From positions 1 to 26,718 of the IMG/VR virus record IMGVR_UViG_3300032931_000202: 26,718 bases of DNA; one strand, 5' to 3'. Below the pieces are notes generated by a model. It worked only from the letters and a program-made list of their open reading frames with translations. It did not search any database and was not told where the DNA came from. The position numbers and the translations under genes are program-made. This document shows, piece after piece, positions 2,484 through 25,492 of the stretch. The DNA is from a virus. The first letter of the stretch is position 1. Every line of letters starts with the position of its first letter.

Positions 2484-4097
2484 ATGCTTTTTGACAGGCT
2501 TTTAAGCAAGCGCGGATCGACACCGATTGATTCCGACGTGGGTTGGAATTACATGTCCGGGGGCCTGCAGACGCAAGCAGGCGTGCGGATCAATGAACAG
2601 ACTGCGCTGGGCATTGCGGCGGTATGGGCGGCAACGCACAACATCAGTGAAGACATCTCGAAGCTGGGTTTGCCGCTCTACCGCTTCACTGATCCGGAAC
2701 GCAAAAACAGAGAAAAGGTTTACGACCATCCGCTTCACGCGATCTTGAACGAGGCTCCCAACGCTGAAATGTCCGCGATGACGTTTCGCGAGACGCTGAC
2801 GGCGCATTTGCTTGGATATGGAAATGCATACGCCGAAATCATCCGCACTGGCGCCGGCGATGTGAAGCGCCTTGAGATTCTTGAGCCTCAAAAGATGGAG
2901 GTGCGGCGAGTCGATGAAAAGATCGTCTACAAATATGACGGATCAATTGTATTGCCCGCGCGTAAGGTGCTGCATGTCAAGGGCCTGGGCTACAATGGAC
3001 TGATGGGCTACAGCGTGGTGCGGATGGCGCGGGAATCGCTGGGCCTCGCCAAGGCGGCCGAGAAATTTGGCGCGTCGATGTTCGGAAACAATTGTCAGCC
3101 TGGCCTAGTCGCCGTGCATCCCGAAACGATGTCGGAGCAGGCTGAGCAGAATTTGCGGCGCACGCTTGAGCGTGCCGGCAAGGGCGAGAACGCCTTTAAG
3201 GTGTTGGTTCTCGAAGAGGGCCTGAAGCTGGATAAACTGGCGATCACGCCCGAAGATGCGCAATATCTTTCGACACGACAATTCGAAATAGAGGAGGTCT
3301 GCCGGTGGTTTCGAATCCCACCGAGCAAGGTCCATCATCTCCTGAAAGCGAATTTTAACACGCTTGAAATGCAGTCATTGGAGTACGTTACCGATACGCT
3401 GATGGGCTGGTGTGTGCGCTGGGAAAAAGAAATCAAGCGCCAACTGCTGACGAATCCTTCGGATCGCGACCTGTATGTTGAACACAACCTTGACGCTCTG
3501 CTTCGAGGGGACATAAAAACGCGAGCGGAATCATATTCCAAGGGTCGTCAGTGGGGATGGTATTCGGTCAACGACATTCGGCAAAAGGAAAACATGCCTC
3601 CGATTGGCGAGGCCGGAGACGTTTACCTGTCGCCGAGCAATATGGTCGATGTCGAAAACATGGATCAGATGATGCCCGTGTCTCAACCAGCGCGTCCGGC
3701 GCCAGATCCAGACGAAGAAGACGACGGCGACGAGCAGGACGAGGAAGAGCGCAAGATTGAGGCGATTGACCGAGCTTTAGGGCGATCAATTGAAAGCGCG
3801 ATGGGGCGGCTGTGCAGGGTCGAAGAAGACAAGATTGCCAGGGCCAGTAAGCGCAATGACTTTGGGGACTGGATCAAGGGATTCGAAATCTCGCACGAGG
3901 AATACGTGTTGAGCGCGATAAATGACGCGGTGAGAAACATTACTCCGCTTTATCATGCGCACGGGCGCAAGATCGACGAGGCCGAGCTTGTTGCGCGAAT
4001 CTGCAGTGCTCATTCAAAACGGCTTGGAAAATGGAACCTGGAACCGGGTCCAGAGTCAGACGTGATTTGCAATGCGATCAAGGAGCTACGAAAATGA
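2484..4097 (+). CDS. Portal protein, HK97 family
   Basis: A 537-residue portal that would form the dodecameric ring at one capsid vertex through which DNA enters and to which the neck attaches. The N-terminal part (SGGLQTQAGVRINEQTALGI, then AVWAATHNISEDI), the central GYGNAYAEIIR segment and FRIPPSKVHHL with the following LEYVTDTLMGWCVRWEKEI helix are characteristic of Phage_portal (HK97 gp3-like). It is longer than HK97 portal because of a C-terminal extension containing an acidic run (around residues 406-425, rich in Asp and Glu) and a helical tail of about 110 residues. Start is ATG 2484, with GAGGA at 2469-2473. It overlaps the protease start by 4 bp (ATGA). Confidence 0.95.
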   Translation: MLFDRLLSKRGSTPIDSDVGWNYMSGGLQTQAGVRINEQTALGIAAVWAATHNISEDISKLGLPLYRFTDPERKNREKVYDHPLHAILNEAPNAEMSAMTFRETLTAHLLGYGNAYAEIIRTGAGDVKRLEILEPQKMEVRRVDEKIVYKYDGSIVLPARKVLHVKGLGYNGLMGYSVVRMARESLGLAKAAEKFGASMFGNNCQPGLVAVHPETMSEQAEQNLRRTLERAGKGENAFKVLVLEEGLKLDKLAITPEDAQYLSTRQFEIEEVCRWFRIPPSKVHHLLKANFNTLEMQSLEYVTDTLMGWCVRWEKEIKRQLLTNPSDRDLYVEHNLDALLRGDIKTRAESYSKGRQWGWYSVNDIRQKENMPPIGEAGDVYLSPSNMVDVENMDQMMPVSQPARPAPDPDEEDDGDEQDEEERKIEAIDRALGRSIESAMGRLCRVEEDKIARASKRNDFGDWIKGFEISHEEYVLSAINDAVRNITPLYHAHGRKIDEAELVARICSAHSKRLGKWNLEPGPESDVICNAIKELRK

Positions 4098-4693
4098 AGC
4101 GAGAAATCAGAACTTTCGGCATGACCGGGATCGAGATCAGGAAGGCCGGCGACAAGAACATGCTTGCAGGTCACGCTGCGCTTTACGACAGCATGAGTCG
4201 CGATCTCGGGGGTTTCTTCGAGACGATCAGGCCAGGCGCATTCAAGCGCGCAATAGCTGAAAAACAGGACGTAAAAGCGCTTTGGAATCACGATTCGGGC
4301 GTGGTGCTGGGACGAACAACAAGCGGCACACTGCGGATTGCCGAGGATGAGCGTGGACTCGCGATCGAAATCGACCTGCCCAACACGAACGCAGCGGCAG
4401 ACCTTAGGGAGTTGATTGAGCGCGGCGACGTCGATCAAATGAGCTTTGCTTTCATCACGCGGCGTGACGATTGGTCGGAGCGAATTGTTAACAATCTCTT
4501 GTCTGTAGTGCGCGAGCTGCAAGATGTCGATCTTTACGATGTTTCACCGGTCACGTTTCCAGCTTACGAGGAGACCGACATCGCAGTGCGATCATTCGAG
4601 CAGAAGCGCAAGCGCGATCAGGACGACGTTGCGAGACGCCACAAAAATCTGATCAGAAAAATTAATCTTGTGAAAATAATCGAGAATGCTTAG
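4094..4693 (+). CDS. Prohead maturation protease, HK97/U35 family
   Basis: A 199-residue serine protease that would process the capsid scaffold (delta) domain inside the prohead. The candidate catalytic His lies in LWNHDSGVVLGRT (H66) and the Ser in GDVDQMSFAF (S117), followed by the family motif LYDVSPVTFPAYEET (148-161). Length and motif order match HK97 gp4-type (Peptidase_S78) enzymes. The ATG at 4094 overlaps the portal stop by 4 bp, indicating coupled translation. The C-terminal 40 residues are Lys/Arg-rich and non-conserved, and the stop at 4691-4693 forms part of a potential three-way RNA junction in the capsid leader. Confidence 0.93.
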   Translation: MKREIRTFGMTGIEIRKAGDKNMLAGHAALYDSMSRDLGGFFETIRPGAFKRAIAEKQDVKALWNHDSGVVLGRTTSGTLRIAEDERGLAIEIDLPNTNAAADLRELIERGDVDQMSFAFITRRDDWSERIVNNLLSVVRELQDVDLYDVSPVTFPAYEETDIAVRSFEQKRKRDQDDVARRHKNLIRKINLVKIIENA

Positions 4694-4741: not shown

Positions 4742-4771
4742 AAGCGAAAATGCAAGAAAAAGGGCTTAAAA

Positions 4772-6202
4772 ATGAAGACAATCGAGCAGTTAAAGGCCGA
4801 AAATAAGGCGTTGCTTGAGGCAATTCGCGCACTCAAGGCGCTTTGCGAGACCGAAAAACGAGAGTTTTCGGAAGACGAAGGCAAGAAAATCGACGAAACT
4901 ATGTCGAAAATTGGGGATAATCGGGCTGAAATTGAGCGCCTGGAGAAGCTGGAAAGCAGGAAAAACAAGCTCGCTGCGCTTGATTCTGAGATGAATCAAC
5001 CGGAAGTGCGCGCAACCAAGCCTTCCGAACCCGAGATCCGCACCGAAAAAGCCAAGTTTACGCTTCCGGCGAGCGCCAGGTCTACGCGCTGCAGTTTCAT
5101 CAAAGATGACACCTACACCGGCATGAAGGCAAACGAGCGCGCTTACCGCATCGGCATGTGGATTGCAGCGACGCGTGGCAACCGCAAGGCTCAGCGTTTT
5201 TGTTTGGAAAACGGGCTTGAGATTGTCGGTTGGGATGACAAAAATGAAAAAGAAGTGCGCTTACATTCTGAAGACATCAACTACCAGGGCGGGTATCTGG
5301 TGCCCGAGGAAGTCGACAACGCCATCATCGACCTGAAGGAGCTGTACGGCGTGTTCCGTGGCTTGGCTCGCAGGTCTCCAATGGGCAGCGACACAAAAAA
5401 CCGTTCGCGACGCAAGACCGGGCTGACGGCGTATTTCGTCGCGGAAGGTGCGGCGATTACGGAATCCAGCAAAACTTGGGATAACGTCCAGCTCGTTGCC
5501 AAGAAGATCGCCGTATTGACTCGCATGACCAATGAACTCGGCGAGGACGCTGCGATCAACGTGGCGGATGATCTCATTGGTGAGATCGCCTACGCATACG
5601 CCAACAAGGAAGACGATTGCGGATTCAATGGCGACGGCACTTCGACTTACGGCACGATTTTCGGAGTGTGTCCGAAACTACTGGCCGTGAGCGGCACAAT
5701 TGGAAACATCAAGGGCCTGATTGTGGCCACCGGAAATCTGTTCAGCGAGTTCGCATTGGCCGACTTCAACAAGGTCGTCTCGATTCTGCCTGAGTATGCC
5801 GACACGCCGAGCGCCGTATGGGTTTGTCACAAGGTTTTCTGGGGCAGCGTGATGCAAAAACTCATGCACGCCGCAGGCGGAAACACGGTCATGGATCTGC
5901 AGGGCAAGGTTGTTAAGAGCTTCATGGGTTACCCGGTGGTGATCAGCCAGGTGATGCCAAAGGCCGATGCAAACAGTCAGATCGCGTGTCTGCTTGGTGA
6001 CTTCGGATTGGCCGCTGATTTTGGCGACCGGCGCATGTCGACCATTGCTTTCAGCGAGCACGCGACGGTTGACAGTCAAAGCGTGTTCGAGCGCGACGAG
6101 GTTGCAGTACGCGGGACCGAGCGTTTTGACATCAACGTCCATGACATTGGCGACACCTCCGCGGCCGGGCCCGTGGTTGGTCTGATTAGCGCATCGTCGT
6201 AA
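4772..6202 (+). CDS. Major capsid protein, HK97 fold
   Basis: A 476-residue HK97-type major capsid protein. Residues 1 to about 75 are a charged coiled coil (MKTIEQLKAENKALLEAIR and following), the expected scaffolding delta domain that the upstream protease would remove. The shell domain follows with typical segments: GGYLVPEEV, LTAYFVAEGAAITES, KIAVLTRMTNELGEDA, and a C-terminal ERDEVAVRGTERFDINVHD. I chose ATG 4772 because AAAAAGGG (4757-4764) is seven bases upstream; an in-frame ATG at 4718 would add 18 basic residues but has no good ribosome site and lies inside a potential RNA structure. Placement after portal and protease is canonical. Confidence 0.96.
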   Translation: MKTIEQLKAENKALLEAIRALKALCETEKREFSEDEGKKIDETMSKIGDNRAEIERLEKLESRKNKLAALDSEMNQPEVRATKPSEPEIRTEKAKFTLPASARSTRCSFIKDDTYTGMKANERAYRIGMWIAATRGNRKAQRFCLENGLEIVGWDDKNEKEVRLHSEDINYQGGYLVPEEVDNAIIDLKELYGVFRGLARRSPMGSDTKNRSRRKTGLTAYFVAEGAAITESSKTWDNVQLVAKKIAVLTRMTNELGEDAAINVADDLIGEIAYAYANKEDDCGFNGDGTSTYGTIFGVCPKLLAVSGTIGNIKGLIVATGNLFSEFALADFNKVVSILPEYADTPSAVWVCHKVFWGSVMQKLMHAAGGNTVMDLQGKVVKSFMGYPVVISQVMPKADANSQIACLLGDFGLAADFGDRRMSTIAFSEHATVDSQSVFERDEVAVRGTERFDINVHDIGDTSAAGPVVGLISASS

Positions 6203-6280: not shown

Positions 6281-6712
6281 ATGAAACAGATCCAGAGGGC
6301 AATCAGCGAAGTGGCGCTTGCGTCGCAGTTGGTGACGGATGGTGCTACGGTTACGGCAAACGTTGACATGCGCGGCTATCACGCCGCAACGATTCTCGTC
6401 AATCTGTCGATTGAAGAGACGACGCACGCGGCAAACAGCACTTTGTCGTTGCTGTCATGCGATACGACCGTGGTAACGAATTTTGCGACGGTCGTTGCCA
6501 ACAAGAGCCTTGATCTCACCGCCGCGAAACAGCATCGGTACGAGATCGATAACCTTGGCGGCAAGCGCTACCTTCGGTTGTCGTTCACGGCCGGAACGAC
6601 CACGGGCGGCAACGTCATGGTCGGTGCGATTGTGCTGAGGGAACGAGGCGACGGTCCGGCAACTACAACCGCGATGGTTGCCAGCACGAACGATTCCGTT
6701 CAGGTTGCATAG
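6281..6712 (+). CDS. Probable head decoration/virion protein (hypothetical)
   Basis: A 143-residue protein of predicted all-beta character, with alternating hydrophobic residues, Thr/Ala/Val-rich composition and no obvious enzyme motif. A central stretch reads DNLGGKRYLRLSFTAGTTTG. It directly follows the capsid gene, behind a good ribosome site (GAGGG, about 6270). That position is where HK97-like phages often encode decoration or head-associated proteins, and the composition fits a beta-sandwich virion component. I do not recognise the family, so function rests on position. It ends just before a 15 bp hairpin that separates it from the sulfotransferase gene. Confidence 0.55.
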   Translation: MKQIQRAISEVALASQLVTDGATVTANVDMRGYHAATILVNLSIEETTHAANSTLSLLSCDTTVVTNFATVVANKSLDLTAAKQHRYEIDNLGGKRYLRLSFTAGTTTGGNVMVGAIVLRERGDGPATTTAMVASTNDSVQVA

Positions 6713-6774: not shown

Positions 6775-7476
6775 ATGGGAAAAAGATTCATTTGGCTTGC
6801 CAGTTATCCAAGGTCTGGATCGAATTATCTTCGGTATTGTATCGAACAGATTTACGGATTAAAGACTTTTAGCCGATACACAAACGATCCGTATGACGAT
6901 GCCTTCAATGATGGCGCGTCGAGCGTGGCAAACGCCGATCACATTCGCGCTACAAACTATTGCTATTACGCAGTAAAAACACATGGTCACGATCTTGAAG
7001 TTGCGACACGCGATCCGGCAATTTTACTGGTTCGTGATGGCCGCGACGCGATCTGTTCGCACGCGCACTACGACATGGAGTGCGGCTACACGCGCAACTC
7101 AAATTTGAAATACGAAACTGTTTTGAAGGCGCTGATCGAGGGCCGATTGAAGCGGTTCGATGGACAGTGCTGGGACTGGGGCGCGCACGCGCGCGCGTGG
7201 ACCGGGCGTCAGACGCCGCTGTCCGTGGTCAAGTTCGAGCATCTAATCCGCGATCCAATCAACGCGATCAAAACCGCATTCAATGAAATCAGCGTGAATT
7301 TGAAAGCGCTGGAAAAGATCGAGTTGGAAAGTTTCGAGGAATTGAAGCGGCGCGATGCAGTGCTTTTTCGAAAAGGGATCAAGCGCATCTATCGCAAAGA
7401 GATGCCGAAGGATCTGCAAAAAATGTTTTGGAAGCGAAACGCGGACATGATGAGGAGGTTCGATTACAAGCCATGA
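6775..7476 (+). CDS. PAPS-dependent sulfotransferase
   Basis: A 233-residue protein with the hallmarks of the cytosolic/Golgi-type sulfotransferase fold (Sulfotransfer_1). The 5'-phosphosulfate loop is WLASYPRSGSNYLR (residues 7-20). KTHGH (68-72) holds the expected catalytic His. LVRDGRDAICSH (85-96) gives the 3'-phosphate-binding Arg (R87) and Ser (S95). VVKFEHLIRDP (151-161) and a C-terminal FRKG (198-201) with MMRRFDY also fit. The enzyme would transfer sulfate from host PAPS to a hydroxyl on sugar, protein or lipid; the acceptor is unknown. Start ATG 6775 has GGGGA at 6765-6769; an ATG at 6718 lies inside the preceding hairpin. It overlaps the next gene, a methyltransferase-glycosyltransferase fusion, by 4 bp, suggesting the two work on a common glycan. 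Confidence 0.88.
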   Translation: MGKRFIWLASYPRSGSNYLRYCIEQIYGLKTFSRYTNDPYDDAFNDGASSVANADHIRATNYCYYAVKTHGHDLEVATRDPAILLVRDGRDAICSHAHYDMECGYTRNSNLKYETVLKALIEGRLKRFDGQCWDWGAHARAWTGRQTPLSVVKFEHLIRDPINAIKTAFNEISVNLKALEKIELESFEELKRRDAVLFRKGIKRIYRKEMPKDLQKMFWKRNADMMRRFDYKP

Positions 7477-8690
7477 GCACGCTGAAGCTGAATATCGGAA
7501 GCGCCAGGGTGAAGATTCCTGGATACATCAATATTGACAGGACGTTGGGAACCGAGGCGTATCCGCTCCCACTGAATATTGTTCAGGAAGATGGAAGTTG
7601 CATCGCAATTACAGATGAAGGCGTACAAGAGGTCCGCGCAAGCCACGTGCTGGAGCACTTCAGCTTTGATGACGTGCCGAAGGTGCTCGGCGAGTGGTCG
7701 CGCGTGTTGGCGCCTGGCGGACGGATGTTTATCAGCGTGCCCGATTATGACAAGGTCAGCGAACTGCGGAAGGCCGGCGATGCGCGCTGGAGGCTTTATC
7801 TGATGGGCGGGCAGACGCACGCGAACGATTATCACCAAAGCGTTTTTGATCGCGTCACCTTGCGAGAGCATATGCTTGCTGCAGGATTGGAGCATATCCA
7901 GATCTGGGACGGCGCTGATGACACCTCGCGGCATCCATGCAGTTTGAATTTGATGGGTATCAAGCCGATGAAAAACCCAATATCGGGGCCTCCTTCGGCA
8001 ACGCACATCAAGCAGATGGAAATAAAAATCATGGCCGTCTGTTCGATTCCCAGGCTGGGATTCAACGACCATTGGGGATGCATCCATGAGGCGTTGCAGC
8101 ACTGGAATATCCCATTGCGACGGTTTACGGGAGCCTACTGGGGGCAGTGCATGCAGGGGGCTCTGGAGGGCGCGCTACAAGGCGACGCCGATTGGATCCT
8201 GACGCTGGACTATGACACAATGTTTTCGCCGCAACATCTTGATGCGATGTTTGGGGCCTTCGGTAGGAATGGCCACATCGACGCCCTGGCCGCGCTACAG
8301 CGCAAAAGAAACGCTGACACGCCTCTTTGTACGGTCAAGGGATGCGAGAAGCAGGAGGTGGCCGGGGATCCGTTTAAGGTAAATACGGCACATTTCGGGC
8401 TGACGTTGATCAGAGCGGCCTCGCTTCGGAAGCTGCCACTTCCATATTTTGCACATGAGCCTGGACCCGACGGGACCTGGACCCATTTCGACCATATTGA
8501 CGATGATATTTTCTTCTGGAAGTCCTGGGAAAGGGCCGGGCTGACGTGCTACGTGCATCCGGATGTTCGCATCGGACACCTCGAAATGATGGTCACCGGA
8601 TTTGACGAATACCACAAACCGGAGTGCATGACGGTTGGGGCGTGGTATAATAAATACAAGCCGGAGACGTTGCACACCGGCTTGGGCTGA
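7473..8690 (+). CDS. Fusion: SAM methyltransferase (N) - GT-A glycosyltransferase (C)
   Basis: A 405-residue two-domain enzyme. Residues 1-165 form a class I methyltransferase: LNIGS (6-10) as the SAM loop, YINIDR (18-23), ASHVLEH (56-62) and LAPGGRMFISVPD (79-91). Residues 185-405 look like a GT-A glycosyltransferase: ADWILTLDYDTMF (239-251) with a DxD-like metal site at D246/D248, HFGLTLIR (307-314), DHIDDDIFFW (340-349) and a late RIGHL. It would add a sugar and methylate that sugar or a neighbouring group; acceptor and donor are unknown. The ATG overlaps the sulfotransferase stop by 4 bp. The GT half shares motifs with the GT half of the fusion at 9801-11174, where domain order is reversed. 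Confidence 0.82.
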   Translation: MSTLKLNIGSARVKIPGYINIDRTLGTEAYPLPLNIVQEDGSCIAITDEGVQEVRASHVLEHFSFDDVPKVLGEWSRVLAPGGRMFISVPDYDKVSELRKAGDARWRLYLMGGQTHANDYHQSVFDRVTLREHMLAAGLEHIQIWDGADDTSRHPCSLNLMGIKPMKNPISGPPSATHIKQMEIKIMAVCSIPRLGFNDHWGCIHEALQHWNIPLRRFTGAYWGQCMQGALEGALQGDADWILTLDYDTMFSPQHLDAMFGAFGRNGHIDALAALQRKRNADTPLCTVKGCEKQEVAGDPFKVNTAHFGLTLIRAASLRKLPLPYFAHEPGPDGTWTHFDHIDDDIFFWKSWERAGLTCYVHPDVRIGHLEMMVTGFDEYHKPECMTVGAWYNKYKPETLHTGLG

Positions 8691-8699
8691 GGGCGATAG

Positions 8700-8921
8700 A
8701 TGAAAATCAGATTCCTGCGACCATATTTCATGTACGCGAAGGGCGAAATAATCGAGCCCGATAAACCGGTGCGGGACATCATGCTTGCGCGTGGGCTTTG
8801 CGAGATCGTCGAGGGCGAGAAGCCGGATAGGAAGAAAGCAGAGCCGCTGATGGAAGTTGCCGCCATCGAGCCGACAGAGCGGGCGATTTCCCGCGGGCCT
8901 GGGCGACCGAGGAAAATATGA
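8700..8921 (+). CDS. Small phage protein with basic GRPRK tail
   Basis: A 73-residue protein. Residues 1-45 (MKIRFLRPYFMYAKGEIIE, later ARGLCEIVE) resemble a very common small phage protein type that opens MKVRFLR and carries a short beta-barrel-like GD/GE..A..L..RG pattern; it is usually encoded near head genes and has no known role. The C-terminus ends RGPGRPRKI, an AT-hook-like basic motif that could touch DNA or an acidic partner. The start is ATG 8700, ten bases after the preceding stop, with GAGGGCG close upstream. It overlaps the next gene by 4 bp (ATGA). Confidence 0.6.
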   Translation: MKIRFLRPYFMYAKGEIIEPDKPVRDIMLARGLCEIVEGEKPDRKKAEPLMEVAAIEPTERAISRGPGRPRKI

Positions 8922-9160
8922 TCGGCGAGCTGAAGGTGCTGCTTGAGTTGATGCGCAACGATCCGCAGTCAGCGGCTCGCGAGCTGGATATTATGGGCGA
9001 CAGATTGAAAAACCTTGCGAAAAAACTGCGACAAGCTGACAATCATTTTCAGGCGTGGTTAGCGTCGCAGGGTTTTTCTCAGCCATGCGGCGTCGGTGAC
9101 AGGGTCATGGTCGAGGTCTACGGACCCGACGGCGTTCTCAAGCAGAAAACGCACACATAG
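8918..9160 (+). CDS. Small helical hypothetical protein with GPDG tail motif
   Basis: An 80-residue protein, mostly helical and charged in residues 1-50 (leucines spaced as in a short coiled coil), ending in a beta-like tail VMVEVYGPDGVLKQKTHT. That tail resembles residues 37-50 of the next product (IKIRLVGPDGVVKQ), so the two neighbours share a small domain or derive from a partial duplication. Start ATG 8918 overlaps the previous stop by 4 bp. I do not recognise the family. Context (late operon, next to a virion-type protein) suggests a structural or assembly role. Confidence 0.5.
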   Translation: MIGELKVLLELMRNDPQSAARELDIMGDRLKNLAKKLRQADNHFQAWLASQGFSQPCGVGDRVMVEVYGPDGVLKQKTHT

Positions 9161-9170
9161 GAGGAAACTC

Positions 9171-9734
9171 ATGCGCAATTCAAAAAATTACGTCAGCGAA
9201 CTTGAAGGCAAGGTCGCGTCATTGGAGGCCGCGAATGCTGCGCTGCAAAAGCATTCACCGTTCCGCGCAAAGAATCGCATCAAGATTCGTTTGGTCGGGC
9301 CTGATGGCGTGGTCAAGCAGGAATTCGATCACGTTGAAAACATCATGGCGACCTACGGGCTGAACTGGCTGTGCGAGCGCATCGCCACCGGTGGCGAGGC
9401 ATCTTCTTGGGTGCAGCGCATGGGCCTCGGCACGAGCACGACTGCAGCGGCGTCGGATCAGGCTTCGCTGATTGCCAGCACGGCGAGCGTGCATATTTCA
9501 GATACGACACGCATGGTGGCGTCGGACGCGGGCAATATGAGCTGTAATTTTCAGGCGACTTTTCTTTCAAACAATCCGGCCGGCGCGGCCGCGATTAACG
9601 AAATCGGACTATTCGGCGGTACGGCGCTATCTGGCAGCATGATCGCCAGGTCGGTGCTGGGAACTGCGAGCATCAACAAGGGGGCCTCGGACTCCATTCA
9701 GATCACGCATCAGATTGTGTTCACGACTGGATAG
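9171..9734 (+). CDS. Putative virion appendage protein (head or tail fibre type)
   Basis: A 187-residue protein. It begins with a coiled coil (about residues 5-27), then a strand region with the shared RLVGPDGVVKQ motif and a long beta-rich domain opening MGLGTSTTAAASDQASL and containing NEIGLFGG. The pattern 'GxGTxxTAAxxxDxxL ... E.GLF' is common in phage structural and appendage proteins. A strong ribosome site GGAGG (9160-9164) precedes ATG 9171; an upstream in-frame ATG at 9096 reads through the previous gene and is rejected. A perfect intrinsic terminator follows immediately, marking the end of a transcription block. Precise role (head fibre, tail or decoration) is not determined. Confidence 0.55.
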   Translation: MRNSKNYVSELEGKVASLEAANAALQKHSPFRAKNRIKIRLVGPDGVVKQEFDHVENIMATYGLNWLCERIATGGEASSWVQRMGLGTSTTAAASDQASLIASTASVHISDTTRMVASDAGNMSCNFQATFLSNNPAGAAAINEIGLFGGTALSGSMIARSVLGTASINKGASDSIQITHQIVFTTG

Positions 9735-9743
9735 CATTTTGCA

Positions 9744-9776
9744 ACTCGCCCAGGTTCGTATCCTGGGCGAGTTTTA
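9744..9776 (+). terminator. Strong intrinsic terminator
   Basis: AACTCGCCCAGG (9744-9755) and CCTGGGCGAGTT (9763-9774) form a perfect 12 bp stem with a 7-base loop TTCGTAT, and the 3' side runs into TTTT (9773-9776). It lies ten bases after the stop of the appendage gene and before the second enzyme fusion, so it would cut or attenuate transcription inside the late region. Confidence 0.85.
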
Positions 9777-9800
9777 CCATTGTTTCGTGGGGAAACGCCA

Positions 9801-11174
9801 ATGAAAGCACAACAACATCCACGCATTTCTATCGCCATTTGCACGCCTCAACCTTACACGCGGGGGCGAAATGGCGAGATCATGCTCGACACCATTACGG
9901 TCAACTGGCAGCGGGCCAGGGCCGGCATGAGCGTGCCGACGAACTTCAACTCGATCGAAATGTTTGCCGACGGAATGGAAGTCGGAGACGCGCGCAATAA
10001 GGTCGCGATGAAATGCGTTGAGTCTTCACCTTCACCTGAGTTCTTGTTTTTCATCGACAATGACGTGCTCGTTCCTCACGATGCCTTGACCAAGCTCTTT
10101 TTCCGCGCGCAGACCCGGCCGCATTACGACATTTATTGCGGCGTCTACTGCTGCAAGTGGACGTCTCCATGCGAGCCGCTGATTTACGCCGGGGATGGAG
10201 GGGGCCCATATTGGGACTGGGCCGTAGGGGATCTTCTGACGACCGAGGAGCACGGGATTACGAGCATCCACATGGGCCTGACGCTGATCAGAACAAGCCT
10301 TTTCAAGCGCATGGTCGAGGCTGGGTATGGATCCGAAAAGCCGATGTTCTTTTCGCGATGCGAAAAGACGGTCACCGACAAGGGCGAGCTGAAGACGGCC
10401 CGGGGGACCGAGGACATTTATTTCTGTCAGATCGCCGTGAACGAGTTCGCAGCAAAAATTCTGGTCGATACTGGAGTCCTTGCTGGGCACATCGACAAAA
10501 GCACGGGGAAAATCTGGGGCCTTGAGGCAACCTCGCCACCCATTCAGCGGGCGCGGCGCCTTTACGCTGGGCAACCTGGTGGATTCCCTGAAGAGCCTGG
10601 CCTCGTGGCGTTGGATATTGGCGCCGGTAATTCTCGCCGGGTCTGGGAGGGCTATAAGACCGAGACGCTGGACATCCGGAAGGAGTCGGGGGCCGATTAC
10701 ATTCAAGACACGCGCATGATGACATTCCGCGACAACACCTTTGACCTCGTGGCGTCGAGTCACCATCTTGAGCACATCGGCAGGCTGGATCAGGAAATGG
10801 TCTGGGCGGAAATGTTCCGCGTTTGCAAGCCCGGCGGAGGCTTCGAGCACATCATTCCTGACGTATCCTGGGCCGCTGACCAGATCTCAAAGGATATCAT
10901 GGACGATCACGTGATGAATGTGCTTTACGGGGCGCAAGAGGCGCACGGCTACGCGCGCGAGTTCAATCTGCATTATTTCGGCTACACGCCTGAAATCGGA
11001 ATTACTCTTGCGAAAAAGGCCGGATTCGTCGATGTTAACTGCAAGAATTGGAAGGACGATCCGGCATTAGGGTACAATATGATTTTGACGGGATTCAAGC
11101 CGGACGAGAAGAAGGGTCAGAATGAGGTGACGGCGATTCAGGACGCGCCACGAAAGCGCAAGAAAAAGAAGTGA
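9801..11174 (+). CDS. Fusion: GT-A glycosyltransferase (N) - SAM methyltransferase (C)
   Basis: A 457-residue two-domain enzyme with the reverse order of the 7473-8690 product. Residues 8-235 are a GT-A-like glycosyltransferase: ISIAICTPQPYTRGR at the start, EFLFFIDNDVLVPHDAL (80-96) with a DxD-like D86/D88, HMGLTLIRTSLFKRM (157-171), RGTEDIYFCQ (201-210) and LAGHI (227-231). Residues 266-435 are a class I methyltransferase: VALDIGAGNSRR (269-280), SSHHLEH (319-325), VCKPGGGFEHIIPDV (341-355). The tail is very basic (RKRKKKK). GTGGGGA lies seven bases before ATG 9801. It follows a strong terminator, so it is probably made at lower level. Substrates are unknown; the sharing of both domains with the earlier fusion points to one glycan pathway. 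Confidence 0.82.
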   Translation: MKAQQHPRISIAICTPQPYTRGRNGEIMLDTITVNWQRARAGMSVPTNFNSIEMFADGMEVGDARNKVAMKCVESSPSPEFLFFIDNDVLVPHDALTKLFFRAQTRPHYDIYCGVYCCKWTSPCEPLIYAGDGGGPYWDWAVGDLLTTEEHGITSIHMGLTLIRTSLFKRMVEAGYGSEKPMFFSRCEKTVTDKGELKTARGTEDIYFCQIAVNEFAAKILVDTGVLAGHIDKSTGKIWGLEATSPPIQRARRLYAGQPGGFPEEPGLVALDIGAGNSRRVWEGYKTETLDIRKESGADYIQDTRMMTFRDNTFDLVASSHHLEHIGRLDQEMVWAEMFRVCKPGGGFEHIIPDVSWAADQISKDIMDDHVMNVLYGAQEAHGYAREFNLHYFGYTPEIGITLAKKAGFVDVNCKNWKDDPALGYNMILTGFKPDEKKGQNEVTAIQDAPRKRKKKK

Positions 11175-11928: not shown

Positions 11929-13002
11929 ATGGCAATAACCGAGGTGTATGTTGACCCGTCGATTGCGGCGGACTCTGGAACCGGCACGGTTGGTGATCCC
12001 TACGGGGATCTCCAGTACGCCTTTAATACCAAGACGCGTGATGCGACCAACGGCGACCGATTCAATATCAAAGTGGGGACCGCTGAGGTGCTGACGGCGA
12101 CTCTGAGCCTTACCACGTATGGCACGCCGACATCCGCCGCACCTCTTTGGATACAAGGATATACCTCTGCCGCCGCAGACGGCGGAACTGGGGAAATTGA
12201 CGGAGCAGCGACGTATTCGATTTTTATTTCGAGCACATTGCAATATATTACATTCATCGATATGAAAATGGGCAATTGTGGTAATAATGCAATTTTGCAA
12301 TTAAGTTCACGTTGCGTGCTTAAGAATTGTGAATTACACACTGCTACGAAAACAACCGGATATGCCGTGCAATTAGGAGCAAACGGAGAAATAATAAGCT
12401 GCTATGTGCACGACGTAGAGGCTGCTGCGCTGTATCCGACAGGATGTACAGTGATTGGATGCACAATAAGCGATGGAGCCGCGACCACGACTATCGGGAT
12501 AGTAGGCGATTCCAATTGTATTCTACTAAATAATATCATCCGGCTAAATACGGGTGCGGGAATTGGTATTCAAGTAAGCTTCGGTTCTGGCGGAATCATA
12601 GGGGGAAATTCAATATTTGCAAATGCCGGTACTGGAAGAGGTATAGATATATCATACCAGACCTACACTACATATCTTAACAATATCATATCTGGATTCT
12701 CGGGCTCTGGCGGAAAAGGCATTAACGTAGCTGCGTCAACCTGTTATGGTGGATATAACGGATTCTATAATAACGCGACCAACAAATCAGGAACTCCTAC
12801 TATAGATTTGGGTGGCGATGAGATCTATAGTGCCTCGCCTTTCGTTGATGCTGCAAACGGAGATTTCAGACTGAAGCCGGGCATTCGTAACGGCGGATAT
12901 CCGACGACATTCAAGGGTCTGACGCCGACGAACTACCTGGACCTTGGAGCCATGCAAGCAATTCAATCCATGCGCCGCTCACGCGCAGTCATGATAGGGT
13001 AA
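11929..13002 (+). CDS. Right-handed beta-helix virion protein (fibre/spike-like)
   Basis: A 357-residue protein with the pectate-lyase-like pattern. The N-terminus reads YVDPSIAADSGTGTVGDPYG, a motif common at the start of parallel beta-helix proteins. Short recurrent strands follow (for example LQYITFIDMKM, RCVLKNCELH, GEIISCYVHD, GCTVIGCTISD, NCILLNNIIR, GGIIGGNSIF), each about 20-25 residues as expected for helix coils. The C-terminus has DFRLKPG and YLDLGAMQ, typical closing motifs. No catalytic triad can be assigned. It would be a receptor-binding or capsid-decorating spike, possibly with glycanase activity. Bases 12230-12840 are much more AT-rich than the neighbours (about 28% GC in one 60-base block), suggesting acquisition from elsewhere. 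Confidence 0.72.
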   Translation: MAITEVYVDPSIAADSGTGTVGDPYGDLQYAFNTKTRDATNGDRFNIKVGTAEVLTATLSLTTYGTPTSAAPLWIQGYTSAAADGGTGEIDGAATYSIFISSTLQYITFIDMKMGNCGNNAILQLSSRCVLKNCELHTATKTTGYAVQLGANGEIISCYVHDVEAAALYPTGCTVIGCTISDGAATTTIGIVGDSNCILLNNIIRLNTGAGIGIQVSFGSGGIIGGNSIFANAGTGRGIDISYQTYTTYLNNIISGFSGSGGKGINVAASTCYGGYNGFYNNATNKSGTPTIDLGGDEIYSASPFVDAANGDFRLKPGIRNGGYPTTFKGLTPTNYLDLGAMQAIQSMRRSRAVMIG

Positions 13003-13006
13003 AACC

Positions 13007-13552
13007 ATGCTGAAAAAAAATGTGGCAAGTCAGAAGATTCCGGTCTACGCGCACGACGTCTTGCTCGACACACCGAAGACCGGCGACGCGGCGAACATTA
13101 CGGCGCGGGTGAGCAAGGACGGTGCGGCGGTTGCACAGAGCAATGACGCGAACCCCACCGAACTCGACGCAACATACGCTCCTGGCTTATATATTTTCGA
13201 CATGACACAGGCGGAAACGAACTGTGAAATGGGCGTGCTGTTCGCTAAAAGCGCAACGGCAAATATTAAGTGTGACCCGGTGGTTTACTGGCCTCAACCT
13301 GACGTGCCTGCCACGTTCGGCGCGGTCAATGACGCCGGCGCAGACACTGACGACTTCGACACTGACCTGACCGAGGCGACGGACGATCACTATAACAAGC
13401 TGTACATCGTCTTCCTTAGTGGCGTTCTGACAGGCCAGGCGCGCAAAATCTCGGACTACGTGGGCAGCTCGAAAAACATTACGTTAGCGGAGCCTCTCAC
13501 CGACGCGCCGACAACAGGCGACAGATTCATGATTTTGGGGCGTAGCGAATGA
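13007..13552 (+). CDS. Beta-rich virion structural protein
   Basis: A 181-residue protein with two parts. Residues 1-90 form an Ig/beta-sandwich-like domain (ITARVSKDGAAV, ATYAPGLYIFDMTQAE, KCDPVVYW). Residues 110-181 carry a module often found at the end of phage virion proteins: DHYNKLYIVFLSGVLTGQAR, ISDYVGSS, LAEPLTDAPTTGDRFMILG. No enzyme motif is visible. It starts four bases after the beta-helix stop and overlaps the 20-residue-repeat protein by 4 bp, so the three are likely made together. A fibre-associated or adaptor role is inferred. Confidence 0.58.
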   Translation: MLKKNVASQKIPVYAHDVLLDTPKTGDAANITARVSKDGAAVAQSNDANPTELDATYAPGLYIFDMTQAETNCEMGVLFAKSATANIKCDPVVYWPQPDVPATFGAVNDAGADTDDFDTDLTEATDDHYNKLYIVFLSGVLTGQARKISDYVGSSKNITLAEPLTDAPTTGDRFMILGRSE

Positions 13553-14742
13553 GAAGCATGTGGTGGTACTTCTTTCATGCGGCGGCGGGTGGGCAAACGT
13601 TCACGCGCTCGATTGTGGAAACTTTACGCGTTACAGATTCATTGGCCAGACAGTCTGATGCAAAAAGAGCGATTACTGAAGCGCTGAAAATTGTTGACGC
13701 CATATTGCGCAAATCTGATGCCCTTCGGTCAATCGGCGAGTCAGTCAAGATCAGTGATGTAATTGCGAGACAAAGCAACGCAAATAGAGCGCTGTCAGAG
13801 AATTTGAAAATCACTGATACGCTGCAATTGATTGCATCGTTCAAGCGCCTCGTTGCAGAAGTCGCAAAGCTGACGGACAGCGTATCGCGCAAGTCAGATG
13901 CAAATCGCTCCATCACAGAACTTGCAAGCCTCGTGGATGCCCTGGCGAGGCAGTCGGATGCAAAGCGTGCGATAGTCGAAACGATGGAATTGATCGACTC
14001 TATAATTCTAAGCGGATCGCTGTTTATCCAGATCGTCGAGGCCATGGCGTTGACTGACAACCTCGACCGCGTAGCACACGCGAATCGGTTGCTCACGGAG
14101 CTTGCGGAGCTTCAAGACAATCTGCAAAAGATCGGGGACTTCAAGCGAAGTATTATCGAAAATGCCGTACTGGTCGACGCGTTGTTGACGGGCTCCCAGT
14201 TGATCATTCGGGTCGTCGAAAGCCTGGCTCTTGTTGACTCGCTGCATGTGCGCATGACCGTGCTGCGAATCATCGGTGAGGCCATCGCCCTGGCTGACAC
14301 GCCACGGTTGTCGATGGCGCAGTTGCGCGCGATTGTTGAATCGCTTGTCATGCGAGATTCGCTTTCCCAAAGTGCTGTTTTCAGGCGAACGATATCCGAG
14401 GTTCTTGAAGCACTCGATTCAATCGTGCGGAAAAGCCAGTATGCGATTTCCATTTCCGAAACATTCAGGCTCGTTGACGCCCTGACCAGGATCCAAGAGG
14501 CTTTGCGTGCAGTCTCTGAAAACATGCCGATGGTCGATGATCTTGCGCGCATCGGCGACTATTTCAGAACGATCAGCGAGGCGCTTGCTCTCGACGATGT
14601 TTTGACAGTGCAGCACATAACGCTTGCGCTTTACGTGAATTTGATTGCAGAGGTCTACGAAAAAACTGAATACATCGGTACACTGCAATCCGACGCAGGG
14701 ACGAAGTTGATTGCCGCGCTTCTTTTCGGAGACAGGAATTAA
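13549..14742 (+). CDS. 17 x 20-residue tandem-repeat protein (fibre-like)
   Basis: A 397-residue protein almost wholly made of repeats. After a 19-residue aromatic leader, residues 20-359 are 17 consecutive repeats of exactly 20 residues with no insertions. Position 5 is Glu and position 11 is Asp in every copy, with hydrophobic residues at 3, 7, 9 and 13 and usually Arg at 1; an example is RAITEALKIVDAILRKSDAL. The alternating pattern suggests two short strands per repeat stacked into a solenoid or trimeric shaft. A 38-residue non-repeat tail follows. I know of no assigned function. Its place between virion protein genes and the baseplate/connector genes suggests an extended appendage. It overlaps the previous gene by 4 bp. 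Confidence 0.7.
   Translation: MRSMWWYFFHAAAGGQTFTRSIVETLRVTDSLARQSDAKRAITEALKIVDAILRKSDALRSIGESVKISDVIARQSNANRALSENLKITDTLQLIASFKRLVAEVAKLTDSVSRKSDANRSITELASLVDALARQSDAKRAIVETMELIDSIILSGSLFIQIVEAMALTDNLDRVAHANRLLTELAELQDNLQKIGDFKRSIIENAVLVDALLTGSQLIIRVVESLALVDSLHVRMTVLRIIGEAIALADTPRLSMAQLRAIVESLVMRDSLSQSAVFRRTISEVLEALDSIVRKSQYAISISETFRLVDALTRIQEALRAVSENMPMVDDLARIGDYFRTISEALALDDVLTVQHITLALYVNLIAEVYEKTEYIGTLQSDAGTKLIAALLFGDRN
13606..14625 (+). repeat. 60 bp coding repeats, 17 tandem copies
   Basis: The reading frame repeats every 60 bases for 1020 bases, each unit giving 20 residues with invariant Glu (position 5) and Asp (position 11). Copies have diverged strongly in DNA while keeping length and these residues; copies 1 and 6 share the block ARQSDAKRAI. 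This argues for old duplication under structural constraint rather than recent slippage. Confidence 0.92.
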
Positions 14743-15148: not shown

Positions 15149-15781
15149 ATGAGAACACGCATCAAAGTCGCAACCGCGCCAACGATCGAGCCAGTGACGC
15201 TGACCGAGGTGAAACAACACCTACGGCGCACGGACCGGCGCGAGGATGACTACATCACGACGCTGATCACCGCGGCGCGGGAATACTGCGAGACCATCAC
15301 GCGCAGGGCCTTCATAACCCAAACGATTGACTTGGTGCTTGATGCGTTTCCTTCGAGCGACGGACTGAGTTATTCGGACGAAACCAGCATTGACCGCGGA
15401 TCTCAGATCACGATTCCAAAGCCGCCACTGCAATCGATCACGTCGATCAAATATCTGGACTCCTCCGGCGCTCTGCAGACGCTTACATCAAGCGCCTACA
15501 ACGCCGACACATACAGCGAGCCAGGGCGCATTTATTTGAGCCAGTCCTATCAGTGGCCAACGACGCAGGACATTGAGAACGCTGTGACGATCAAATACGT
15601 TGCTGGCTACGGACTCACGGCGGCAACGGTGCCGACCGCGCTGCGTCACGCCATCAAACTGGTGGTTGCGCATTGGTTTCTAAACCGCGAATCTGTGATC
15701 GTAGGCGTGACAAGTCACGAGCTTGAGCGCACGCTGAAAAGCCTGCTTTGGCAATATCGCGACTACAGGATGAGCTACTAA
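15149..15781 (+). CDS. Head-tail connector, HK97 gp6 / phiE125 gp8-like
   Basis: A 210-residue connector that would bind beneath the portal ring. The N-terminal helical part (EPVTLTEVKQHLR, then DDYITTLITAAREYCETITR) and the following LDAFPSSD and IPKPPLQSITSIKYLD are characteristic of the phage connector family. C-terminal helices (PTALRHAIKLVVAHWFLNRE) also fit. The length of about 200 residues is that of the longer gp8-like type rather than the short HK97 gp6 type. The ribosome site AGGGGC precedes ATG 15149. In most relatives this gene lies right after the capsid gene; here about 9 kb intervene. Confidence 0.9.
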   Translation: MRTRIKVATAPTIEPVTLTEVKQHLRRTDRREDDYITTLITAAREYCETITRRAFITQTIDLVLDAFPSSDGLSYSDETSIDRGSQITIPKPPLQSITSIKYLDSSGALQTLTSSAYNADTYSEPGRIYLSQSYQWPTTQDIENAVTIKYVAGYGLTAATVPTALRHAIKLVVAHWFLNRESVIVGVTSHELERTLKSLLWQYRDYRMSY

Positions 15782-24381: not shown

Positions 24382-24735
24382 ATGGCATCAGAAGAACTTG
24401 ATCGATATGCGCATCAACCCTGCTTCATTTGCGGGGCCCGGCCGGTCGGCATGAGGCGAGAGGCGATTTTTGAGCGATTCATTTTGATTGGCGGCAACCG
24501 CAAAGCAATTTTTACGCCTGGGCGCTGGGTGACGTTCTGCGACGCACACCGGCCGGAGCTGTGGCGGCGAGCATGGGGGATTTCATTCACTTTTTGGATG
24601 CAGGTGCTCGATTCTATTTCCGGTCAGAGGCTTTTTGAAAAAAGCTATCGGAAAACAGCGCAAGACATCTATAATGCGAACCTGCATCCAGGCGCTGCGC
24701 TGCGCGAGATGTTTGCTGACGCTGACGGGAGATGA
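24382..24735 (+). CDS. Hypothetical protein with CxxC/CxxH zinc-binding pattern
   Basis: A 117-residue protein with C14 and C17 in PCFICGAR and C53/H56 in FCDAHRPE, a spacing that would form a single treble-clef or zinc-ribbon-like site. The remainder is helical and basic, including an aromatic stretch WRRAWGISFTFWMQV that is hydrophobic but has internal Arg and so is not a clear membrane helix. GAGGTGAG lies upstream of ATG 24382. It overlaps the holin-like gene by 4 bp. I do not recognise the family; DNA binding or a nuclease remnant would be a guess. Confidence 0.5.
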   Translation: MASEELDRYAHQPCFICGARPVGMRREAIFERFILIGGNRKAIFTPGRWVTFCDAHRPELWRRAWGISFTFWMQVLDSISGQRLFEKSYRKTAQDIYNANLHPGAALREMFADADGR

Positions 24736-24986
24736 ATCCAATGGTCGATTTCGTGAAGCTGTTTGTCGATAACGGCAGTTTTACGGTGACGCTGGTCGGC
24801 ATTTTGGTTTATTGGCAATTGACGCGCGAAAAACGGTTGAGCGAGCGGCTGGATAAGGTCCAGGATGAGCAGGTGAAAGCGTCGCATGAGGTAATCGCGA
24901 AAAACAGCGAGGCGCTGATGTGCGTTCGCGACGCGATGAATCGCCTCGTGACAAATTGCGAGCTCAAAGGGAGAGAAAACGCATGA
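24732..24986 (+). CDS. Holin-like small membrane protein
   Basis: An 84-residue protein with one N-terminal membrane segment (about residues 14-30, GSFTVTLVGILVYWQL) followed by a charged coiled coil (TREKRLSERLDKVQDEQVK and on). One membrane helix plus a cytoplasmic coiled tail is the layout of BhlA/UviB-like and other small phage holins, and the gene lies in the usual lysis position after the tail genes. No endolysin is found next to it, which weakens the call. It overlaps both neighbours by 4 bp, so it is translated in a coupled block with the lipoprotein. Confidence 0.5.
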   Translation: MNPMVDFVKLFVDNGSFTVTLVGILVYWQLTREKRLSERLDKVQDEQVKASHEVIAKNSEALMCVRDAMNRLVTNCELKGRENA

Positions 24987-25492
24987 GCAGAAAACAGCTT
25001 TTCGTTCTACCTGCGCTGATGGCGCTGATGCTGGCGTGCGTGGGCTGCGGTGAGTCAATCCAGGCGGCCAGAGCAATCGGCGCCATCGAAGCGAGCAGCA
25101 TCAACTACGATCAAAACAGAGACCGGATCGACGAGGCTTTTATCCAGTTTTACCGGGCGAAAATGATTGCCGAGGCCGACGCCCTGGCTGACGCTGCAGT
25201 CAAGGCGGAGACAAAAATCGTCGATGGTGTGCCGCTGGCAAACCCAACAAACCTGGGTCTGATCTACGCCAAAAAGCTCGATGACTACAAGACCATCGAG
25301 GGACGCATCATTGAGATGAGGACGAAAATAATCGCTGCAAAGCAGGATCACGTGAACATCATTCAGTACAGCGAGGCCATGAAAAACTACTTCAACGCCT
25401 CGACAGCGAGCGCTGATTTACTGAACAAAAACACCGAGCAAGTGCTTCAGATGCTCGAGCAGTTCATGCCAAAGAAAGGTGGGGAAAAATGA
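24983..25492 (+). CDS. Putative lipoprotein, possible spanin-like lysis protein
   Basis: A 169-residue secreted protein. Residues 4-18 form a signal peptide (KQLFVLPALMALMLA) ending at C19 or C22 (LACVGCGES). The lipobox is imperfect, but two cysteines after a hydrophobic core support lipoprotein processing. The rest is a long charged helical/coiled region (DALADAAVKAETKI, later QYSEAMKNYFNASTASADLL). Directly after a holin-like gene it could act as an outer-membrane spanin component, which would imply a diderm host; other lipoprotein roles are possible. ATG 24983 overlaps the holin-like stop by 4 bp; GGGAGAG lies upstream. Confidence 0.55.
   Translation: MSRKQLFVLPALMALMLACVGCGESIQAARAIGAIEASSINYDQNRDRIDEAFIQFYRAKMIAEADALADAAVKAETKIVDGVPLANPTNLGLIYAKKLDDYKTIEGRIIEMRTKIIAAKQDHVNIIQYSEAMKNYFNASTASADLLNKNTEQVLQMLEQFMPKKGGEK

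Follow-up and report, generated by a model that had tools for sequence, protein, structure and literature searches.

The DNA analysed here, called the window below, is the whole 26,718-nucleotide (26.7 kb) stretch of the IMG/VR viral record IMGVR_UViG_3300032931_000202 from an uncultured phage. According to the family and PHROG profile matches, the window carries the late genes of a tailed phage of the HK97 type, among which a gene for a sulfotransferase (ST) is followed by genes for two fusion enzymes, a methyltransferase-glycosyltransferase (MT-GT) and a glycosyltransferase-methyltransferase (GT-MT). The gene order in the left part was determined to be TerS, TerL, portal, S78 protease, major capsid protein (MCP) and a 143-residue capsid-associated open reading frame (ORF), followed by the ST region. 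Further to the right, head-tail adaptor, closure, neck, terminator, tail chaperone and tape measure genes were recognised, which confirms the placement of the cassette between capsid and connector genes claimed by an earlier sequence-only reading. The claimed 4-bp overlap of the ST gene with the next ORF was also confirmed, the MT-GT ORF beginning at 7473 (ATGA). The second fusion does follow the first one, but not directly, as three small ORFs (8700-8921, 8918-9160 and 9171-9734) intervene.

Sulfotransferases transfer sulfate from 3'-phosphoadenosine-5'-phosphosulfate (PAPS) to hydroxyls, often of sugars. By motif, profile and predicted fold, the ORF 6775-7476 is a true PAPS-type sulfotransferase. 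The score with PF00685 Sulfotransfer_1 was 35.7 bits, the cut-off being 22. The 5' phosphosulfate loop (SYPRSGSNYLR), the catalytic motif (VKTH-GH, including K68-T69-H70) and the 3' phosphate site (LVRDGRDAICSH) were all identified, and the residues A9, P12, G15, K68, T69, H70, R87, D88, R90 and W135 are invariant and S95 is nearly invariant in 17 viral sequences. All the motifs named in the sequence-only reading were present, with a qualification at the C-terminus: the motif of sulfotransferases usually continues as GxxGDW, and in the FRKG region of the window ST the RKG is kept and the GDW is replaced (FRKGIKRIYRKEM), with W retained in most relatives. The structure was predicted by AlphaFold2 using the alignment of 17 viral homologues and resulted in a pLDDT of 83.1 and a pTM of 0.82; four near-identical sequences alone gave a pLDDT of 32. 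The best PDB fold matches of the predicted ST were SULTs with bound 3'-phosphoadenosine-5'-phosphate (PAP), and the Foldseek match with SULT7A1-PAP had an E value of 7e-8, a probability of 1.00 and a TM-score (query) of 0.66. The profile of the viral ST sequences matched the solved SULT structures with an E value of 1.5e-25. A predicted structure lacking the PAPS-type fold, which the sequence-only reading would have taken as a refutation, was not obtained. A link to the CJJ1420 O-methyl phosphoramidate transferase was rejected as noise (E value 0.018, 14 bits compared with the cut-off of 600).

The two fusions have opposite domain orders. In the first one, the MT domain (Methyltransf_23, PF13489) precedes the GT domain (weak Glycos_transf_2 matches, 0.007-0.024), and in the second one the GT domain precedes the MT domain (Methyltransf_11, PF08241). 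Both class I S-adenosylmethionine (SAM) methyltransferase profiles scored above their curated cut-offs, with 33.9 bits (cut-off 27) for PF13489 and 37.6 bits (21.2) for PF08241. The GT domain reached 16.7 bits with PF00535, which is below the curated cut-off of 23.3, and the same profile was matched by 9 of the 16 homologous GT domains at E≤0.1. In all 16 domains, D66 and D68 of the DxD motif are invariant. The GT half of the second fusion matched the hidden Markov model (HMM) of the GT domain of the first fusion with 7e-7. The GT domain is classed, based on sequence, as GT-like (GT-A-like) and not as a GT2 member. No transmembrane-like hydrophobic segment was found in any of the three enzymes, which are predicted to be soluble. 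The determined coordinates are presented in the table.

Table. Features of the capsid-linked locus in the window and the matches on which their assignments are based.
Feature	Coordinates	Strand	Evidence
HK97-type major capsid protein, locus anchor	4763..6202	+	PF05065 6.6e-40; phrog_10 1.5e-55
Small capsid-associated (decoration-like) protein, 143 aa, 21% Ser+Thr; candidate acceptor	6281..6712	+	phrog_5707 1e-9 (PHROG of unknown function)
PAPS-dependent sulfotransferase (ST, Sulfotransfer_1), 233 aa	6775..7476	+	PF00685 7.9e-9; AlphaFold2 fold; PDB profile match
Methyltransferase-glycosyltransferase (MT-GT; GT-A-like) fusion, 405 aa	7473..8690	+	PF13489 3.2e-8; weak PF00535; DxD
Small slot ORF, 73 aa	8700..8921	+	phrog_16445 weak, 0.0043; kept in sister phages
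Small slot ORF, 80 aa	8918..9160	+	without family match; kept in sister phages
Possible fibre-like structural protein, 187 aa	9171..9734	+	phrog_5417 2.7e-14 (unknown function); phrog_4176 tail fiber 1.1e-5
Glycosyltransferase-methyltransferase (GT-MT) fusion, 457 aa, reverse domain order	9801..11174	+	PF08241 3.5e-9 at residues 285-346; GT-domain HMM
Head-tail adaptor, right-hand border of variable slot	15149..15781	+	phrog_442 1.9e-25

The cassette is kept in the sister contigs L002, L003 and L004, with the same order of ST and MT-GT. The amino acid identities were 87-88% for ST, 89-93% for MT-GT and 89-90% for GT-MT, the last being compared in L003 and L004, as the L002 contig stops before this gene. 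The ratios of nonsynonymous to synonymous substitution rates (dN/dS) were 0.10-0.11 for ST and 0.04-0.07 for the fusions, indicating purifying selection. Since the cassette genes are conserved with low dN/dS in the sister phages, they are functional and not debris. Chance, frameshift and host contamination were ruled out by the sister conservation, the purifying selection and the recurrent placement behind the MCP described below.

The first scans retrieved the three sister phages only, because the search pattern was taken from lineage-specific stretches of the phage ST. With an alignment mixing the phage ST with the approximately 30% identical STs of Planctomycetota genomes, 104 ST-bearing viral contigs were found in IMG/VR, corresponding to 70 lineages at 60% identity; all 16 tested ST records passed the PF00685 cut-off. 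An MCP was recognised in 29 lineages, and in 24 of them the ST start lies no more than 1 kb behind it, compared with 4.6 expected and a maximum of 13 in 20,000 simulations. As the null was a random + strand ORF from the same fetched locus, the enrichment of viral contigs for structural genes does not explain the placement. As only two profiles were used to recognise MCPs, the proportion of STs that are capsid-linked, taken over the full set of lineages, is a lower bound. The placement was observed in two capsid families. In the window-like type I, the order is MCP, decoration gene, ST, optional sugar-pathway enzymes, MT-GT and head-tail adaptor; it was found in the window, L097, L098, L100, L101, L103 and L190-L194, the adaptor preceding MT-GT in L098 and L192. 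A homologue of the 143-residue gene, whose position suggests a decoration role, lies directly 5' of the ST in nearly all of the window-like phages. In the P22-like type II (phrog_283 MCP), the order is MCP, ST and a virion structural protein (phrog_2941). Other STs come after head or virion structural proteins (phrog_240; weakly phrog_3758). In an approximate FastTree tree, the STs located behind MCPs were spread over several separate clades (type I main group, L101/L103, L132/L201, main P22-like and L167-L172), which points to repeated recruitment of STs to one spot behind the MCP. The survey of related contigs thus revealed STs linked with MT/GT and late structural genes in many phages, and not the unlinked, scattered genes which the sequence-only reading had named as a refutation. 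In L104 (2807-4209), L136/L138 (5219-6816) and L140 (3552-6792), the locus was noticed to hold a pair of ST genes, arranged in tandem or near each other.

The region from the decoration gene to the head-tail adaptor is a variable slot, which is nearly empty in L023 and holds the full set in the window. MT-GT without ST was found in L006/L007, L021, L022 and L033, and MT+GT+GT in L014/L041; across the relatives, GT genes are linked to virion structural genes. In L103, ST and MT-GT are fused in a single ORF of 664 residues, and in L104 a GT-MT is followed by two tandem STs. Sugar-pathway enzymes were detected as well: L098 encodes a GDP-mannose 4,6-dehydratase (3582-4598; PF16363 1.8e-119) between the prohead protease and major capsid genes, and cytidylyltransferase-like enzymes occur at the ST locus in L097 and L101. 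Across 11 phages, the ST divergence tracked the GT divergence best (r = 0.76), with all the block genes co-diverging. A second MT-GT pair directly 3' of the head-tail adaptor was noticed in L193 (4768-5925) and L194 (4783-5937), where the fusion copies flank one structural gene.

The locus is, in our moderately confident judgement, probably a late capsid-linked glycan-modification module which would place a methylated and sulfated glycan on capsid-shell proteins. This is supported by the family, motifs and fold of the ST, the MCP-linked placement in two capsid families and several ST clades, the ST-MT-GT fusion, the slot variants, the sugar-pathway neighbours, the correlated ST and GT distances, the lack of transmembrane-like segments and the purifying selection, and virion-protein glycosylation has a precedent in mycobacteriophages. 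The interpretation given in the sequence-only reading is partly supported. The following course, including the co-expression, acceptor, product and purpose of the module, is what we infer. Late in infection, the soluble phage enzymes would be made together with the head proteins and would draw on the PAPS, SAM and nucleotide sugars of the host. The MT-GT and GT-MT fusions would carry out the sugar addition and O-methylation, and the ST would transfer sulfate onto a sugar hydroxyl. The most likely acceptor would be one or more of the capsid-shell proteins encoded just upstream, either the 143-residue decoration-like protein or the MCP, and the outcome would be a negatively charged particle coat.

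Several observations weigh against this interpretation. The GT assignment is sequence-based, resulting from weak Pfam scores and a conserved DxD pattern. In the P22-like STs and in L132/L201, no window-type GT/MT was found alongside (a provisional result, as the contigs are fragmentary), and Glycos_transf_2 was not found in the records G446-G451, which are fragments; a glycan acceptor is therefore not universal. A decoration-like gene is present, too, in L023 and L038, in loci where MT, GT and ST were not seen, and is hence not specific to the module.

The occurrence of an ST without GT in type II phages makes direct sulfation of protein, or the use of a host-made glycan, a real rival. In the former case, the ST would act on tyrosine (or Ser/Thr) hydroxyls of the capsid proteins and the MT-GT would be a separate neighbouring activity, which agrees with the STs lying behind the MCP without GT/MT in P22-like phages and L132/L201. 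We consider this explanation unlikely due to the ST-MT-GT fusion of L103 and the stable linkage of ST and MT-GT in window-like phages. In addition, cytosolic SULTs and antibiotic STs gave much stronger matches with the ST profile (1.5e-25) than did the protein-tyrosine STs (about 1e-5).

Modification of the host surface, an option of the sequence-only reading, fits less well and is judged to be rather improbable. Here, the cassette would alter an envelope glycan of the host, resulting in superinfection block, progeny release or lysogenic conversion. Sets of GT, MT and ST genes are typically found in bacterial loci for surface glycans, and the nearest full-length cellular STs were found in Planctomycetota genomes. 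However, the enzymes are predicted to be soluble, with no membrane anchor detected, and no flippase, polymerase or GtrA/GtrB-like membrane partner, as in lysogenic-conversion (gtr-type) operons, was recognised beside them in the window slot. The cassette also has a fixed position within the head-gene block, and a placement next to an MCP is repeated in type I, type II and L132.

It is very improbable that the genes are selfish or host-derived cargo without virion function, residing in an insertion-tolerant slot behind the decoration gene. The slot is indeed variable and nearly empty in L023, but strong purifying selection, co-divergence of ST with GT and MCP, the ST-MT-GT fusion and the separate recruitments to the same place argue against it. 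We know of no sulfated DNA base modification. Hypermodification of DNA by phage GTs does occur (a topic cited in PMC12619734), but hypermodification of the phage bases by GT, MT and ST against restriction is the least credible explanation here, as genes for base synthesis or base modification were not recognised among those of the window and the location is late and structural.

Relatives of TerL in bacterial genomes belonged to Planctomycetota/Phycisphaerae in 7 of 10 loci, with about 50-57% identity, and this group is regarded as a lead to the host only. APS (adenosine-5'-phosphosulfate) kinase is encoded in 8 of 9 bacterial genomes bearing TerL relatives, so PAPS should be available in the host. 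In the Planctomycetia genome G044, APS kinase lies approximately 320 bp from a cellular ST. The scan of the genome contigs with ST gave no match. Planctomycetota contigs L048-L051, L054, L055 and L057 carry TerS-TerL pairs about 50-57% identical to those of the window; the window-type portal, capsid and protease were not found near most of the pairs, which may be degraded prophages and give a lead to the host.

Other genes of the window were also noticed. A protein of 397 residues (13549-14742) consists of approximately 21-residue repeats (RSIxExLxLxDxLxR-like); its length is 463 residues in the sister phage L003, which suggests a length-variable structural protein. The slot protein 11929-13002 resembles a parallel beta-helix and could form a fibre or spike of the head; similar-looking genes occur in L025 (7977-9335) and L056 (9415-10881). 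In L003, different genes replace the 11.2-13.5 kb segment. A small hydrophobic protein (24732-24986) and a lipoprotein-like ORF (24920-25492) are possible holin/spanin-type lysis genes.

Capsid or tail proteins of mycobacteriophage virions are glycosylated (Freeman et al. 2023, Cell Host Microbe, as cited in PMC12691614 and PMC12619734). Those phages and hosts are unrelated to the ones considered here, for which a virion glycan is predicted from the genes. To our knowledge, no sulfotransferase has been reported in mycobacteriophage glycosylation modules. The podovirus ctKR88 (MW202524), with another capsid lineage, has GT and MT genes between the MCP and the stabilisation protein; an ST was not found there. 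The cytosolic SULT and glycopeptide STs (SULT7A1 5x2b, StaL, Teg12/14) share the PAPS fold and motifs with the window ST, but the identity is about 14-18%, the GxxGDW of the window ST is degenerate and the setting is different. ST genes of tailed phages have been annotated before: in OM43 phages and a Synechococcus phage as Sulfotransfer_3 (PF13469), with the function stated to be unclear (PMC10580990), and in glacier viruses (PMC8290583); the available text of neither source links them to a capsid locus or GT/MT. BFVD contains sulfotransferase entries of P-SSM7 and uncultured Caudovirales. No published link of a phage ST to virion glycosylation, and no report of a phage bearing sulfated sugars on its particles, was found in the searchable literature, which includes few subscription papers. 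Phage STs and virion glycosylation are each known; what appears to be new is that they are systematically linked at the capsid locus. In tblastn searches of 50,697 annotated phages with ST, MT-GT, GT-MT and GT, an ST was not found, and for the fusions there were weak partial matches but no full-length relatives. The arrangement, described earlier as unusual, is so among the sequenced isolates but recurrent in uncultured phages.

Phage STs are annotated as metabolic genes of unclear function (PMC10580990), for which the capsid-side position and the MT-GT fusion provide a specific and testable candidate role in virion sulfation. A broader proposal, advanced tentatively and at somewhat less than even chance, is that sulfation of the virion shell is convergent and widespread in uncultured tailed phages, the ST having been recruited several times behind the MCP, in HK97-type siphoviruses with MT-GT and in P22-like phages without it, resulting in sulfated particles of a kind that has never been observed among cultured phages. 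The lack of an isolate match in the 50,697 records suggests that culture has overlooked a whole class of particle chemistry. If true, a sulfated coat would change the particle charge and could change surface adsorption, host contact and stability. The results suggest that uncultured bacterial viruses cover their virions with a coat of sulfated sugars.

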